Assembly (NCBI RefSeq): GCF_001244545.1
Contig: NZ_LN852695.1
Span: 1-64,000 of the forward strand
Length of the DNA stretch: 64,000 bases
Reading direction: 5' to 3'
Source of the DNA: Candidatus Stoquefichus sp. SB1
GTDB taxonomy: Bacteria; Bacillota_I; Bacilli_A; Erysipelotrichales; Coprobacillaceae
Shown: piece by piece, positions 20,505-61,193 of the stretch
Layout: every line of letters begins with the position of its first letter
Position numbering within the stretch: position 1 is the stretch's first letter
Program-made: the position numbers and the translations under genes
Notes under the pieces: model-generated
What the model saw: the letters and a program-made list of their open reading frames with translations, nothing else
Databases searched by the model: none
What the model was told of the DNA's origin: nothing

Positions 20505-20531
20505 TAAATAATACATACAAAATATTAAAAA

Positions 20532-20545
20532 GTTTCATTTGAAAC
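20532..20545. promoter_or_regulatory. Operator copy 2 (activase promoter)
   Basis: GTTTCATTTGAAAC, the longest copy of the motif, with arms GTTTCA/TGAAAC around TT. It ends six bases before the -35 of the activase promoter and its centre is 94 bp from that of copy 1, about nine helical turns. Confidence 0.7.
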
Positions 20546-22641: not shown

Positions 22642-22680
22642 TTCTATCACCCATTTCTTGTTTTAGATTAACATATCAAT

Positions 22681-22694
22681 GTTTCAAATGCAAC
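22681..22694. promoter_or_regulatory. Operator copy 3 (DeoR gene promoter)
   Basis: On the minus strand GTTGCATTTGAAAC, one base different from GTTTCATTTGAAAC at 20532. It lies about 40 bases upstream of the regulator's start and suggests autoregulation. Confidence 0.65.
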
Positions 22695-22737
22695 TTTTTA
22701 TTATTTCATTTTATAATCTTTTAAATAAAGAAAAAAA

Positions 22738-22918
22738 GCAATCCGAAGATTACTCTCTTTTAACCTATAATAGATAATCTCTATAATCATAATGTATGTC
22801 TTTATTTTATTTGGCTATAAAATTTTAACGACGATGAATAGGAGTATGAGGATAATTATAGTGATTGACTATTATAATCTTATAAGTTGCAAACGGAAGT
22901 TAGTCAATGCTAACTTAC
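22738..22918 (-). ncRNA. Probable iron-regulated small RNA
   Basis: A complete small transcription unit without a convincing gene: promoter TTGACA-17-TATTAT, predicted start near 22918, and a terminator GTAATC-TTCG-GATTGC followed by seven Ts (22731-22753). The product would be about 180 nt. The 20-bp palindrome AAGTTAG-N6-CTAACTT at its first bases is the same as the one at the feoA promoter, in the same position relative to the -10. Open frames inside are short and lack a well-placed ribosome-binding site. It may be an iron-sparing regulatory RNA like RyhB or FsrA in role. Read-through from feoB is separated by the terminator at 23041. Confidence 0.6.
22897..22916. promoter_or_regulatory. 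DtxR-type iron box at the small-RNA promoter
   Basis: AAGTTAG-TCAATG-CTAACTT, a perfect 7-bp-arm palindrome over the predicted transcription start. TTAG...CTAA half-sites are typical of DtxR/IdeR/MntR-family repressors. Two further copies precede feoA. Confidence 0.7.
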
Positions 22919-22924
22919 ATATTT

Positions 22925-22953
22925 ATAATACTCTTATATTCTAGAATTGTCAA
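22925..22953 (-). promoter_or_regulatory. Promoter of the small RNA
   Basis: Minus strand: -35 TTGACA (22948-22953), 17-base spacer, -10 TATTAT (22925-22930); one mismatch in all from consensus. Confidence 0.8.
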
Positions 22954-23040: not shown

Positions 23041-23058
23041 GAGCTAACGATGTAGCTC
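23041..23058 (-). terminator. Terminator of the feo operon
   Basis: GAGCTA / TAGCTC stem, followed on the minus strand by TTATTTTTTTT. It overlaps the end of the Cys-rich FeoB partner gene. Confidence 0.82.
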
Positions 23059-23241
23059 TTTCTTATATTCTTCAAATATCGATTGAGAGTGGTGACATAA
23101 TGATTGACTGCCACAACCACCACAATCTCCACCACATGATTTTCCACTTTTCTTATCCTTTCTTATTATTCTTATGCACTGAATAACTATGAGAATAAGA
23201 ATACATAGGACTATAAATGTTGATAAATTCATCACATTCAC
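23044..23241 (-). CDS. FeoB-associated Cys-rich membrane protein
   Basis: A 65-residue protein: one N-terminal membrane helix (residues 7-26), a basic stretch, then SCGGDCGGCGSQSLCHH with four clustered cysteines and two histidines. This matches the small Cys-rich protein family encoded after feoB in many Firmicutes (Pfam FeoB_associated). It could bind Fe(II) at the inner face of the channel; the role is not established. It starts six bases after feoB. Confidence 0.88.
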   Translation of the reverse strand: MNVMNLSTFIVLCILILIVIQCIRIIRKDKKSGKSCGGDCGGCGSQSLCHHSQSIFEEYKKELHR

Positions 23242-23247
23242 CTTCTT

Positions 23248-25380
23248 TTATGAATTGACAGAATATTGAACTTCTAGTTTTTCTGATGTTTTAACTTTTC
23301 TTAGCAATAAGTAAATAACTGCTATGATGACAATCAACGCAACAACTGTCCAGATTCCAAAAACACCATAAAGAATAAAGTTTCCAATTTGATAAATAAT
23401 CAAAGCAACTGCATATGCAAAGACACATTGATAGATAATCGCAAAAGCTGTCCATTTTCCATTATTCATTTCTCTTTTTATCGCTCCCATAGCTGCAAAA
23501 CATGGAGCACACAACAAGTTAAATGCTAAGAATGAATATGCAGATAAGGCCGTAAAACTCATGGCTAGTGTTCCCCAAATCTCTGTACCATCTTCTGCAA
23601 CTTCCGCAAAACCATACAACTGTCCAAAAGTTGCAACTACATTTTCTTTAGCAACAAGACCAGTTATAGTTGCTACTGCACCTTTCCATTCACCCCAGCC
23701 AAGAGGTGTAAATATCCATGCAAAAGTCTGTCCGATCATCGCTAACAAACTATGATTAATATCTTCAACCATAGCAAAGCCACCATTTTCAAATCCAAAT
23801 GATTGTAAAAACCAAATGACTATAGTCGATAACAAGATAACTGTTCCTGCTTTTTTGATGAAAGACCAGCCTCTTTCCCACATACTTCTTAAAACATTCA
23901 TTACTCTTGGTGCATGATAAGCAGGCATTTCCATAACAAATGGTGCTGGATCACCTACAAACATTTTTGTTTTCTTGAGGATAATACCTGAAATAATAAT
24001 CGCTCCGACACCTAAGAAATAAGCACTTGGTGAAACCCATGATGCACCATTAAATAATGCACCAGCAATCAATGCAATAATAGGCAGTTTTGCTCCACAA
24101 GGGATAAATGTTGTTGTCATGATTGTCATCTTACGATCACGGTCACTTTCAATTGTACGACTTGCCATGATTCCTGGGACCCCACAACCACTACCAATTA
24201 ACATAGGAATAAATGACTTCCCAGACAATCCAAATTTTCTAAAGAGACGATCCATAATAAATGCAACACGTGCCATATAGCCACAATCTTCTAAAATAGC
24301 TAAGAAAATAAATAACACAAGCATCTGTGGAACAAATCCTAATACTGCTCCAACTCCACCAACAATTCCATCAATAATCAAACTCTGTAACCAGGTCGCA
24401 CAATTGATTGCAGTTAAAAAGCCTTCAATAGCTGGTGGAATGATTTCTCCAAAAAGAACATCATTTGTCCAATCTGTTATAAATGTTCCAACTGTTGTGA
24501 CTGATACATAATAAACAATAAACATAACCAATGCAAAGATAGGTAAAGCTAAAATACGATTTGTCACAATTCTATCAATTTTATCAGATGTTGTTAATTG
24601 TTCACGATTAGCTTTTACATAACAGTCTTTCATAATATCCGTAATATAAGTATATCTAGCATCTGTAATAATACTTTCACTATCATCATCCAATTTCTTT
24701 TCAATCTTTTGAATTAAACTTTCATCATCTATATTTATCTTTAATGATGTGATGATTTTATCATCACGTTCAAACAGTTTTACACTATAAAAGAACTTTT
24801 TGTCTTGATCAATGGTTTTAGGTAATAAATATCCAATTTGTTTTAAGACTTCATTAATATCCTTATTATAAATATTTTTAACTTCAAAAGAACAATGAAC
24901 ACTCTCTCTTACCTTTTCCATCACTTTCTCAATCCCTTTATTCTTAAGGGCAGAAATAGGAACAATAGGACATCCTAATCTCTTTGAAAGCTTTTCATAA
25001 TCAATTTTATCACCACGTTTTTCAATAACATCCAACATATTAATAGCAACAACAACGGGTATTCCCAGTTCAAGTAATTGTGTCGTTAAATAAAGATTAC
25101 GCTCCAAATTAGAACCATCAATGATATTTAATATAACATCAACCTTTTCATTTAATAAAAACTCACGAGAAACAACTTCTTCTAATGTATAAGGTGATAA
25201 GGAATAAATCCCAGGCAAATCAGTAATTTTAATATCTTTATCACCTTTATATTTTCCTTCTTTTTTCTCAACTGTAACCCCTGGCCAGTTTCCAACAAAT
25301 TGATTTGCTCCTGTTAAAGCATTAAATAATGTTGTTTTCCCACTATTGGGATTTCCTGCCAATGCAACTTGTATAACCAT
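23248..25380 (-). CDS. feoB: Ferrous iron transporter FeoB
   Basis: A 710-residue Fe(II) importer. The N-terminal G domain has G1 (GNPNSGKTT, from residue 9), G3 (DLPGIYSL) and G4 (NMLD), followed by the GDI region and a membrane domain of two Gate repeats. Length is normal. It is third in the feoA-feoA-feoB order and is followed by the Cys-rich partner. The operon promoter carries two iron-box palindromes, so expression should rise on iron limitation. Fe(II) uptake suits an anaerobe. Confidence 0.97.
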   Translation of the reverse strand: MVIQVALAGNPNSGKTTLFNALTGANQFVGNWPGVTVEKKEGKYKGDKDIKITDLPGIYSLSPYTLEEVVSREFLLNEKVDVILNIIDGSNLERNLYLTTQLLELGIPVVVAINMLDVIEKRGDKIDYEKLSKRLGCPIVPISALKNKGIEKVMEKVRESVHCSFEVKNIYNKDINEVLKQIGYLLPKTIDQDKKFFYSVKLFERDDKIITSLKINIDDESLIQKIEKKLDDDSESIITDARYTYITDIMKDCYVKANREQLTTSDKIDRIVTNRILALPIFALVMFIVYYVSVTTVGTFITDWTNDVLFGEIIPPAIEGFLTAINCATWLQSLIIDGIVGGVGAVLGFVPQMLVLFIFLAILEDCGYMARVAFIMDRLFRKFGLSGKSFIPMLIGSGCGVPGIMASRTIESDRDRKMTIMTTTFIPCGAKLPIIALIAGALFNGASWVSPSAYFLGVGAIIISGIILKKTKMFVGDPAPFVMEMPAYHAPRVMNVLRSMWERGWSFIKKAGTVILLSTIVIWFLQSFGFENGGFAMVEDINHSLLAMIGQTFAWIFTPLGWGEWKGAVATITGLVAKENVVATFGQLYGFAEVAEDGTEIWGTLAMSFTALSAYSFLAFNLLCAPCFAAMGAIKREMNNGKWTAFAIIYQCVFAYAVALIIYQIGNFILYGVFGIWTVVALIVIIAVIYLLLRKVKTSEKLEVQYSVNS

Positions 25381-25434
25381 ACTTTTTCCTCCTATAGTTA
25401 CCCTAAACTAACTCGTTAATATTTTTTAATGCTG

Positions 25435-25653
25435 CTAAAGAACATCAATCATAGCAGCATCTGCTTTTCTTAAAGATAATTCATATCCTCTTACTGTCAC
25501 TTCTATAGGATCACCTAATGGTGCAACTTTTCTAACATAAACCTCAACACCTTTTGTAATTCCCATATCCATGATTCTACGTTTTATAGCTCCTTGACCA
25601 TTTAATTTCTTAACAGTCACGCGACTACCAACTTCAACTTCTTTTAATGTCAT
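25435..25653 (-). CDS. feoA: FeoA domain protein (second copy)
   Basis: A 72-residue SH3-like FeoA protein (TLKEVEVGSRVTVKKL ... IKRRIMDMGITKGVEV ... PLGDPIEVTVRGYELSLRKADA). The PLGDPI motif is the classic FeoA core. FeoA is thought to bind FeoB and modulate transport. Fourteen bases separate it from the other FeoA gene; about 55 bases from feoB. Confidence 0.92.
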   Translation of the reverse strand: MTLKEVEVGSRVTVKKLNGQGAIKRRIMDMGITKGVEVYVRKVAPLGDPIEVTVRGYELSLRKADAAMIDVL

Positions 25654-25667
25654 ATTTATCCCCCCTT

Positions 25668-25880
25668 TTAAATCATAATTTTTTTTGCAAGTTCTTCACT
25701 AATAGCGACTCTAGAATCTTTAATATTGACTATTATACTTCCTTTATTTTTAGTAATGATAGAAACTAAACTCCCTGGAACAAACCCCAGATTTTCAAGA
25801 TGACGTTTTGTTTCATTTCCACCACCTACTTTTTTGATAATATTTTCTTTATTTACATCAGCGAATGTCAATGGCATCAT
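25668..25880 (-). CDS. feoA: FeoA domain protein (first copy)
   Basis: A 70-residue FeoA-like SH3 protein, more divergent than its neighbour: it has NETKRHLENLGFVPGSLVSI and VNIKDSRVAISEELAKKI but not the PLGDPI motif. First gene of the feo operon. Tandem unlike FeoA genes before feoB are common in Firmicutes and may form a mixed regulator of FeoB. Confidence 0.88.
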   Translation of the reverse strand: MMPLTFADVNKENIIKKVGGGNETKRHLENLGFVPGSLVSIITKNKGSIIVNIKDSRVAISEELAKKIMI

Positions 25881-59820: not shown

Positions 59821-61193
59821 TATTTTCCCAAAGTTTTACTTCTATCTGTATATGATGTATGTAACATATCTTCAGCTAAGTCACTCATCGGCGCTTGATA
59901 AAAATCTTGATATAATTGTTTGATTTCTGGATTCTCATGACTCTTTCTTAAAGACATAGATTGATCTCGATTGTATAATCCAGCAATGCGTTTTGCACGT
60001 AAAATATCTCCCTGGTATTGAGTATCTTTTGGTTGACCTCCACCACCAATGCAACCGCCAGGACAAGTCATGACTTCTATAAAGTGATATTGTTTATTAG
60101 ATGTTTTCATTTTTTCAATAAATGCACTCGCATTCTTTGTTCCAAAAATCACTGCAATATTAACCGTTATTCCATTAATCTCAACACTTGCTTCCTTGAC
60201 ATCATCTAATCCTCTTACTGGAGTATAACTCAACAAATCAGCAGGAGCACTCTGACCTGTCATAATTTCATAAGCAGTACGCAAAGCAGCTTCCATAACA
60301 CCACCTGAGTTACCAAAAATAACTCCTGCTCCACTAGCTTCTCCCATTAATGGATCAAATTGAGAATCTTCTAAAGAAGTAAAATCAATATTTTCTTCTT
60401 TTGCCCATTTTGCAAGTTCTCTTGTCGTAATGACATAATCCATATCACGCATATTATCAATTCCTAAATATTTACCAGCATCACACATTTCTTCTCTACG
60501 AATTTCATATTTTTTAGCGGTACAAGGTGTTACTGCAATATTGACAATTTTTGTTGGATCTAAATTCATTTTTTTAGCAAAATATGTTTTAACAGTTGGT
60601 CCTTGCATACCAATTGGACTCTTAGCTGTTGAAAGATGTTCACGCATATCAGGATGATATATTTCTAAATATTTCACCCATGCTGGACAACAACTTGTGA
60701 ATTGTGGTAAAGGCTTTGTTTGATTTGTTAAGCGACGTATTAATTCTGTACCTTCTTCCAAAATTGTTAAGTCCGCAGAAAAATTTGTATCTAAAACAAA
60801 TTGACCTCCCAGTTTTCTTAGTAATGCAACCATTTTCCCTTCCACAAAAGAACCATCAGGCATTCCAAATTCTTCACCTAATGCTATTCTGACTGATGGA
60901 GAAGTATTAAAAATAATGATTTTATCAGGATTTTTCATTTCTTCTTGAACCAATGGATATTCATAAGTTTCATGAATACTTGATACTGGACATACATTTG
61001 CACATTGTCCACAATTGATACAGACAGCTGTATCTTGTGTATCCTCTAAACGATATGTTCCATGAACGCCAATATAATCTTGACAAATTGTTTTACATTG
61101 ACCACATCGAATGCATTTCTCTTCATCTCTTTGAATTGATGGATTATCACATTCTATTGGTACACGAATATCCATTCCTAAATGTTTACTCAT
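59820..61193 (-). CDS. [FeFe] hydrogenase, monomeric
   Basis: A 457-residue iron hydrogenase. Two [4Fe-4S] ferredoxin motifs (CIRCGQCKTICQ, CINCGQCANVCP) precede the H-cluster domain with L1 TSCCPAW, L2 TPCTAKKYE and L3 EVMTCPGGCIGGGGQP. All four cluster cysteines are present. In the common group-A motifs L2 begins with Met and L3 has MAC, so Thr at these two sites is a variation. It may produce or consume hydrogen, or sense it. A 24-residue N terminus replaces the longer ferredoxin-type one. Ribosome-binding site GGAGG; maturases HydEFG are not in the window. Confidence 0.9.
   Translation of the reverse strand: MSKHLGMDIRVPIECDNPSIQRDEEKCIRCGQCKTICQDYIGVHGTYRLEDTQDTAVCINCGQCANVCPVSSIHETYEYPLVQEEMKNPDKIIIFNTSPSVRIALGEEFGMPDGSFVEGKMVALLRKLGGQFVLDTNFSADLTILEEGTELIRRLTNQTKPLPQFTSCCPAWVKYLEIYHPDMREHLSTAKSPIGMQGPTVKTYFAKKMNLDPTKIVNIAVTPCTAKKYEIRREEMCDAGKYLGIDNMRDMDYVITTRELAKWAKEENIDFTSLEDSQFDPLMGEASGAGVIFGNSGGVMEAALRTAYEIMTGQSAPADLLSYTPVRGLDDVKEASVEINGITVNIAVIFGTKNASAFIEKMKTSNKQYHFIEVMTCPGGCIGGGGQPKDTQYQGDILRAKRIAGLYNRDQSMSLRKSHENPEIKQLYQDFYQAPMSDLAEDMLHTSYTDRSKTLGK

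Follow-up and report, generated by a model that had tools for sequence, protein, structure and literature searches.

The window analysed here, a 64,000-nt stretch of the Candidatus Stoquefichus sp. SB1 genome, probably encodes a small RNA that stands under the same iron-controlled operator as the iron-uptake operon feo and blocks the translation of iron proteins when iron is short. Its unit lies on the minus strand, between feo and a gene for a DeoR-family regulator. Our computations establish the operator, a conserved and structured RNA, an exposed core within it, complementarity to the ribosome-binding sites of iron-protein genes, and homology to a gene for a Cys-rich protein. Judged from the sequence, scarcity of iron probably triggers synthesis of the RNA, which seems to keep iron-rich proteins such as ferredoxin from being produced. 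An iron-responsive small RNA had been proposed in the initial annotation of this DNA. Conservation, covariation and target matches sustain an iron-box RNA with an unpaired targeting region, whereas the assignment to DtxR/Fur-type control lacks support in the form given; the likely targets and the origin from a decayed gene are additions to that proposal.

The anatomy of the unit suggests how such a regulator might operate. With ample iron, a repressor bound to the palindrome would keep the promoter shut; in iron shortage, the RNA would be made and would fold so that ACUCCUAUUCAUC is left unpaired in a loop. The exposed core could then pair with the ribosome-binding sites of mRNAs for iron-rich proteins, stopping translation and sparing iron, with ACUCCUAUUC being the letters of the core proposed to be in direct contact with the target mRNA. 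Ferredoxin is the best supported of the proposed targets, followed by rubrerythrins and other Fe-S or iron enzymes. If this is true, a new iron-sparing RNA would control ferredoxin in anaerobes that rely on it. It would also be a traceable case of a protein-coding gene becoming a regulatory RNA, beside an operon with which it has common regulation and with the intact gene surviving in relatives.

The predicted transcription unit and its operator

The features of the unit are collected in Table 1. The near-consensus promoter, for which no strand had been given initially, lies on the minus strand, matches at 11 of 12 positions and is one of the two best within 10 kb; as a class, promoter-like sites show no excess (42 found, 55.6 in shuffles). 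The terminator placed about 180 nt further on is likewise there, with a 7-bp stem, a UUCG loop and a T run; it is absent from the output of the terminator scan, presumably because its stem has just two G-C pairs. No convincing gene had been seen at the locus, and we agree: no ORF is supported, the longest on the minus strand (29 aa) crosses the terminator, and the three reading frames through the core are without a start codon.

Table 1. Features of the small RNA unit and the neighbouring operon (positions in the window)
Feature	Position	Strand	Basis or remark
Promoter, TTGACA (22953-22948), 17 bp, TATTAT (22930-22925)	22925-22953	-	same arrangement with the box in other box-bearing homologs
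Iron box (operator) AAGTTAGCATTGACTAACTT, over the predicted transcription start	22897-22916		20-bp palindrome
Small RNA, predicted transcript of ~187 nt	22731-22917	-	start deduced from promoter; homologs
5' arm CTATAATTAT of the loop-closing helix, ending at the base preceding the core	22852-22861	-	covariation
Core CCTCATACTCCTATTCATCGTC, predicted unpaired anti-Shine-Dalgarno targeting segment	22830-22851	-	conservation, fold
Second conserved block GACATAC, remnant of K-S-R-H codons	22794-22800	-	
3' arm ATGATTATAG of the closing helix	22781-22790	-	covariation
Intrinsic terminator AGTAATC-TTCG-GATTGCT and T run	22731-22754	-	direct reading, fold
feo operon: feoA, feoA, feoB, FeoB-associated Cys-rich protein	23044-25880	-	same kind of box

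The palindrome takes the same position here as at the feoA promoter (26013-25985), where two boxes (25977-25958 and 25943-25924) lie 34 bp apart, and this geometry, too, had been noted correctly. Two exact palindromes occur in the window (300 dinucleotide shuffles average 0.003), and three with at most one mismatch (0.02 in the shuffles). With up to three mismatches the count is at chance level (6, with 5.1 expected), and genome-wide the 21 sites with up to two mismatches are fewer than the 73 found for the pattern read backwards. Given that there is no excess at looser matching, only near-perfect sites carry meaning. Copies with at most one mismatch are found in the whole genome at the small RNA, at feoA (two), before an ahpC-ahpF pair (one mismatch, at the promoter; contig 4, 347376; L001 5377), before a CydDC-like ABC transporter pair (two; contig 4, 542845-542893; L002 5346-5394) and at one further place. 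Box-like palindromes on contig 5 (L004 5266-5675), spaced at multiples of 78 bp, are coding repeats rather than operators; they lie inside the reading frame of a DUF285 repeat gene and were left out of the counts.

In other genomes of the family, a box precedes feoA in all eight feo operon starts that were read (G001, G006, G014, G017, G019, G022, G040 and G042). Boxes of the same type are also present in G025, from another family of the order (L019 1198 and 1500), yet the RNA was not found there; the operator thus seems to predate the RNA. The CydDC-like pair with its boxes is possibly an unrecognised iron transporter; in G040 a box precedes such a pair beside feo (L046 15185-15204), and in G017 the pair also adjoins feo. 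A different motif, of the TTTGAAAC type, lies upstream of deoR (22676-22710) and of a pyruvate formate-lyase-like gene (20520-20545) in the window, as well as upstream of deoR in several relatives, and is likely the operator of DeoR.

Candidate repressors of the box are two DtxR-family proteins, one encoded beside a second feoAB and one beside a ZIP transporter gene, and a PerR-like protein, the sole Fur-family member found in the genome, whose gene adjoins that of a rubrerythrin. No link was found between the box and any of the three. The second feoA-feoB operon (contig 4, 789856-791190; L007) has its DtxR-family gene on the opposite strand and shows no such box within three mismatches in the stretch examined. 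DtxR boxes have 19 bp, with one base between GTTAG and CTAAC. The half-sites here resemble them, but six bases separate the two in the boxes at both the small RNA and feoA, so that the spacing is not that of a DtxR/IdeR operator. Fur-type boxes are of the GATAAT type, from which the palindrome differs, and no Fur other than the PerR-like protein was found. The DtxR- or Fur-type control initially assigned to the locus thus lacks support in that form.

Given the box before ahpC-ahpF, which would link peroxide defence to the feo regulon, the RNA might base-pair as proposed while its box responds not to iron but to another signal, e.g. peroxide or manganese. The PerR-like nature of the only Fur-family protein and its rubrerythrin neighbour fit this alternative as well. 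We nevertheless consider it unlikely, since a box precedes the ABC transporter pair beside feo in G040 and is found at each of the feoA starts read from related genomes, and since the complementary targets described below are iron proteins.

Distribution, conservation and fold of the RNA

A DNA search with the locus gave matches in 8 of 40 genomes, its own included; four of the seven others share the core (G001, G007, G017 and G022) and three share other parts only, such as the feoA promoter or the terminator (G014, G019 and G025). The core pattern occurs in 10 of 43 family genomes, at one place each, and the reversed pattern in none of the 43. These ten matches are nine non-coding homologs and an intact coding gene in G014. 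A covariance model built from three Massilimicrobiota sequences matches 12 of the 43 genomes and adds a tenth non-coding member, G006, in which a box is found at the expected promoter position although the model carries no box information. A second model, built on ten sequences, matches 13 of 315 genomes from the order: the ten with non-coding homologs (G000, which is the genome of the window, G001, G006, G007, G017, G022, G040, G041, G042 and G048), the intact genes of G014 and G019, and a chance match in G278 inside an apparent gyrA. This last one and weak matches in G001 (contig 2), G022 (contig 19) and G014 (contig 38) were rejected, as they lie inside unrelated genes. The RNA spans four genera of the family, and named matches to it are Candidatus Stoquefichus massiliensis, Massilimicrobiota and Erysipelotrichaceae. 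Of nine exact contig matches, two (in a Pacearchaeota and a Spirochaetales MAG) are taken as chance, the DNA examined there showing no box with two mismatches or fewer.

The feoA palindrome is present at the promoter of nine of the ten homologs and at the same spot, singly in G000, G006 and G041 and in tandem in six, so that the operator is common to the RNA and the iron-uptake genes, as in an iron-sparing sRNA. Retention of the palindrome in close relatives, on which the initial annotation had let its reading depend, is thus seen in eight of the nine other genomes. The exception, in which the palindrome is missing, is G001 (Ca. Stoquefichus massiliensis), the nearest of those searched; its RNA comes after the final gene of the feo operon, whose own start has a box. 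The RNA unit lies away from feo in G007 and G041, and the G048 contig stops immediately upstream of it, which makes the pairing of box and RNA independent of the feo neighbourhood.

The predicted transcript folds at -38.3 kcal/mol (z -4.1 against shuffles). RNAfold structures of the first nine sequences follow a common plan of one or more 5' hairpins, a long helix closing the core-bearing loop, and the terminator, and in eight of the nine the helix touches the base preceding the core. In the model-based alignment of all ten, 95.6% of the cells form pairs and 26 cells have two-sided pair changes, compared with 9.2 in shuffles (none of 500 reaches 26) and at most 7 when the pairing is slid; the alignment, made with the covariance model from three sequences, leans towards that structure, and was used for the count because MAFFT misaligned the 3' arm. 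The anti-Shine-Dalgarno core ACUCCUAUUCAUC is nearly invariant among the homologs and is unpaired at 0.48-0.89, compared with 0.37-0.46 for whole transcripts, the lowest value (0.48, half exposed) being that of G041; ACUCCUAUU is identical in all ten.

This conservation bears on whether the transcript might instead be the mRNA of a short peptide, or a dual-function RNA that also encodes one. One frame is open for 47 codons in G017 and 53 in G042, and G017 has a 16-codon ATG frame. Given that no start-bearing frame is common to the ten, and that the open frames vary by species while the nucleotides of the core do not, we hold this to be very improbable.

Predicted targets

In the ten RNA-bearing genomes there are 57 occurrences of the exact 11-nt complement ATGAATAGGAG and 13 of a backward control; nine of the 57 are the RNA's own antisense, 37 precede a reading frame of at least 40 codons, and 11 lie elsewhere. 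Iron proteins are encoded behind 16 of the 37 ribosome-binding sites, compared with three among the 50 controls (Fisher p 4e-5 counted per site; 7 of 25 distinct families, p 0.013). Significance is overstated by tests run on related genomes, and ferredoxin itself was picked by searching. The 16 comprise seven ferredoxins, three rubredoxin-rubrerythrin fusions, two rubrerythrins, an iron alcohol dehydrogenase, a flavodoxin-ferredoxin type protein, a ferredoxin-fused aldo/keto reductase, and an NADH:flavin oxidoreductase, the latter counted for its four-Cys motif. Pfam served to assign 30 of the 37 proteins, the other seven being orthologs judged by near-identical first residues. The controls were 50 genes from a pool of 64, with the feo operon excluded, and their three iron proteins are a glycyl-radical activase, an FeFe hydrogenase and a serine dehydratase, the last counted on the basis of its family.

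All 16 iron sites fall in Massilimicrobiota (g17) and g7, with 16 of 26, against none of 11 in G000, G001 and G006. The search with the unpaired region suggested in the initial annotation hence yielded matches at iron-protein ribosome-binding sites in these two genera, and no enrichment in the genome of the window. At the level of sequence, complementarity between core and iron-protein genes is strong in g17 and g7 and weak or absent in g1 and g6.

For ferredoxin, a perfect 11-nt complement is present in 7 of 10 gene copies in RNA-bearing genomes and in 1 of 13 in others. The longest complements are 11 nt in seven copies and 10, 8 and 4 nt in the remaining three of the former group (with two copies from G040), and 11, 8, 7, 7, 7, 6, 6, 6, 5, 5, 5, 5 and 5 nt in the latter (Mann-Whitney p 0.002, uncorrected for relatedness; 23 genes, G042 being without a ferredoxin match at 1e-8). 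The one 11-nt site among the other genomes belongs to G014, which is without a stand-alone RNA and whose intact gene holds the same core. The ferredoxin site of G006 is complementary over 4 nt only. Core and ferredoxin site in G001 are both unlike those of the other genomes, yet a 9-nt complement is still formed; this is weak as a co-change, given that G019, which has no RNA, carries the same leader letters there.

Candidate targets in G000 itself are a TSCPD-domain gene, ferredoxin and an FeFe hydrogenase. For ferredoxin the match spans 10 nt and gives -15.5 to -16.0 kcal/mol, the mean over 204 unselected genes being -10.8 (sd 3.2); the FeFe hydrogenase at 61193 reaches -18.6, fifth of 204; the rubrerythrin site is not complementary to the core. 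The start of the TSCPD-domain gene is the best 15-nt hit (-25.3 kcal/mol), to which the stop codon of the gene in front contributes, and the site is only partly kept, with -19.6 in G007, -19.9 in G040 and -9 to -17 in nine others. As a target motif, the 15-nt full complement of the core was rejected, its genome-wide counts being at control level. So were rpoC and groEL, which recur among 9-nt matches and are not kept; the rpoC match comes cheap, because the stop codon of the preceding gene supplies letters.

Origin of the RNA and relation to known regulators

Given its homology to a Cys-rich gene that is intact in two relatives, the RNA looks like a decayed coding gene turned regulator. The model from three RNAs scores 49.4 bits (E 4.6e-8 for that genome) on the gene for the FeoB-associated Cys-rich membrane protein of G014, which sits directly after feoB and contains ACUCCUAUUCAUC. 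The Cys-rich gene of G019, at the position that the RNA occupies elsewhere, scores 26.6 bits (E 0.056 for that genome, weak alone). In most RNAs the ancestral frame reads I-V-x-L-I-L-L-F-I-V, which resembles the transmembrane stretch of the G014 protein, and then breaks off; the core apparently descends from these transmembrane codons. Despite the homologous DNA, the RNA locus does not have the ORF, start and Cys-rich tail of such a gene, and a start with a Shine-Dalgarno sequence is absent from the ancestral frame in nine of the ten non-coding copies, G017 having one, followed by 16 codons. The lesions differ, with a frameshift in G017 and an in-frame stop in the g7 genomes; in G040 the ancestral frame is open but has no usual start. 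A FeoB tree, some branches of which are weakly supported, places G014 and G019 beside Stoquefichus (g1) and G006 (g6), apart from Massilimicrobiota (g17) and G022/g7, and coding may thus have been lost more than once.

These observations allow for a tentative extension, which we regard as possible rather than probable: the pairing core might have been active already within the Cys-rich coding sequence. The ancestral feo mRNA, made only in low iron, would then have had a dual function, coding for the protein and pairing with the ferredoxin mRNA. Coding would have been lost separately in the lineage of Stoquefichus and G006 and in that of Massilimicrobiota and g7, so that the pairing segment persisted as a stand-alone RNA and gained its own iron box. 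The intact gene of G014, which has ACUCCUAUUCAUC alongside an 11-nt complementary ferredoxin site in the same genome, fits such a history, as do the FeoB tree and the genus-specific lesions. Homology to the intact genes of G014 and G019, and an ancestral frame that is broken or has no usual start, could also mark a transcribed but functionless remnant of the decayed gene. We find this hardly credible, as a nearly invariant core over four genera, compensatory changes, and a dedicated box in nine of ten homologs would be unexpected for a dead gene. Just as hard to credit is a cis-acting leader of deoR, which lies downstream in nine of the ten homologs: a terminator and an apparently separate conserved promoter come in between, deoR is split into two pieces in G040 (L046 6839-7527) next to an intact RNA, and none follows the RNA in G001.

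By the tests made, the iron-sparing RNA proposed here belongs to no known family. Rfam scans of the window locus and the nine other loci gave no match at gathering score (best weak match BTnc231, E 0.56), and thus no sequence-structure homology to IsrR, FsrA, RyhB or PrrF, families that we take to be included in this library. Among the open-licence PMC papers searched, no such RNA was found for these genera or this class of gut Firmicutes.

By analogy, the RNA may nonetheless work like FsrA or IsrR. FsrA of Bacillus subtilis is described as an iron-repressed and Fur-controlled RNA that binds Shine-Dalgarno sequences via a C-rich motif and works with FbpABC (PMC9410917); a Shine-Dalgarno pairing segment is predicted here as well, without the Rfam match. 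MrsI of Mycobacterium (named in PMC9410917), predicted to answer to the DtxR-type iron repressor IdeR, comes from an unrelated bacterial group. IsrR of Staphylococcus has two iron boxes at its promoter, a terminator, and three single-stranded C-rich regions that pair with Shine-Dalgarno sequences of targets rich in Fe-S proteins, among them those of nitrate respiration and TCA enzymes (PMC9410917, PMC11257911). Both IsrR and the RNA described here combine iron-box control, often with two boxes, a C-containing single-stranded region for Shine-Dalgarno pairing, a terminator, Fe-S-rich targets (predicted in our case) and a low-G+C Gram-positive host. They differ in the operator palindrome, in the single pairing core within one large loop as opposed to three C-rich regions, in the predicted targets, which are ferredoxin and rubrerythrin here, and in the origin from a feo-operon gene; neither the Rfam scans nor the gene neighbourhood revealed a relation. 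Finally, the G001 RNA, in the 3' part of the feo operon and without a box of its own, resembles 3'-end-derived sRNAs (reviewed in PMC9438474), whereas in nine of the ten genomes the RNA differs from these in having its own promoter and operator.
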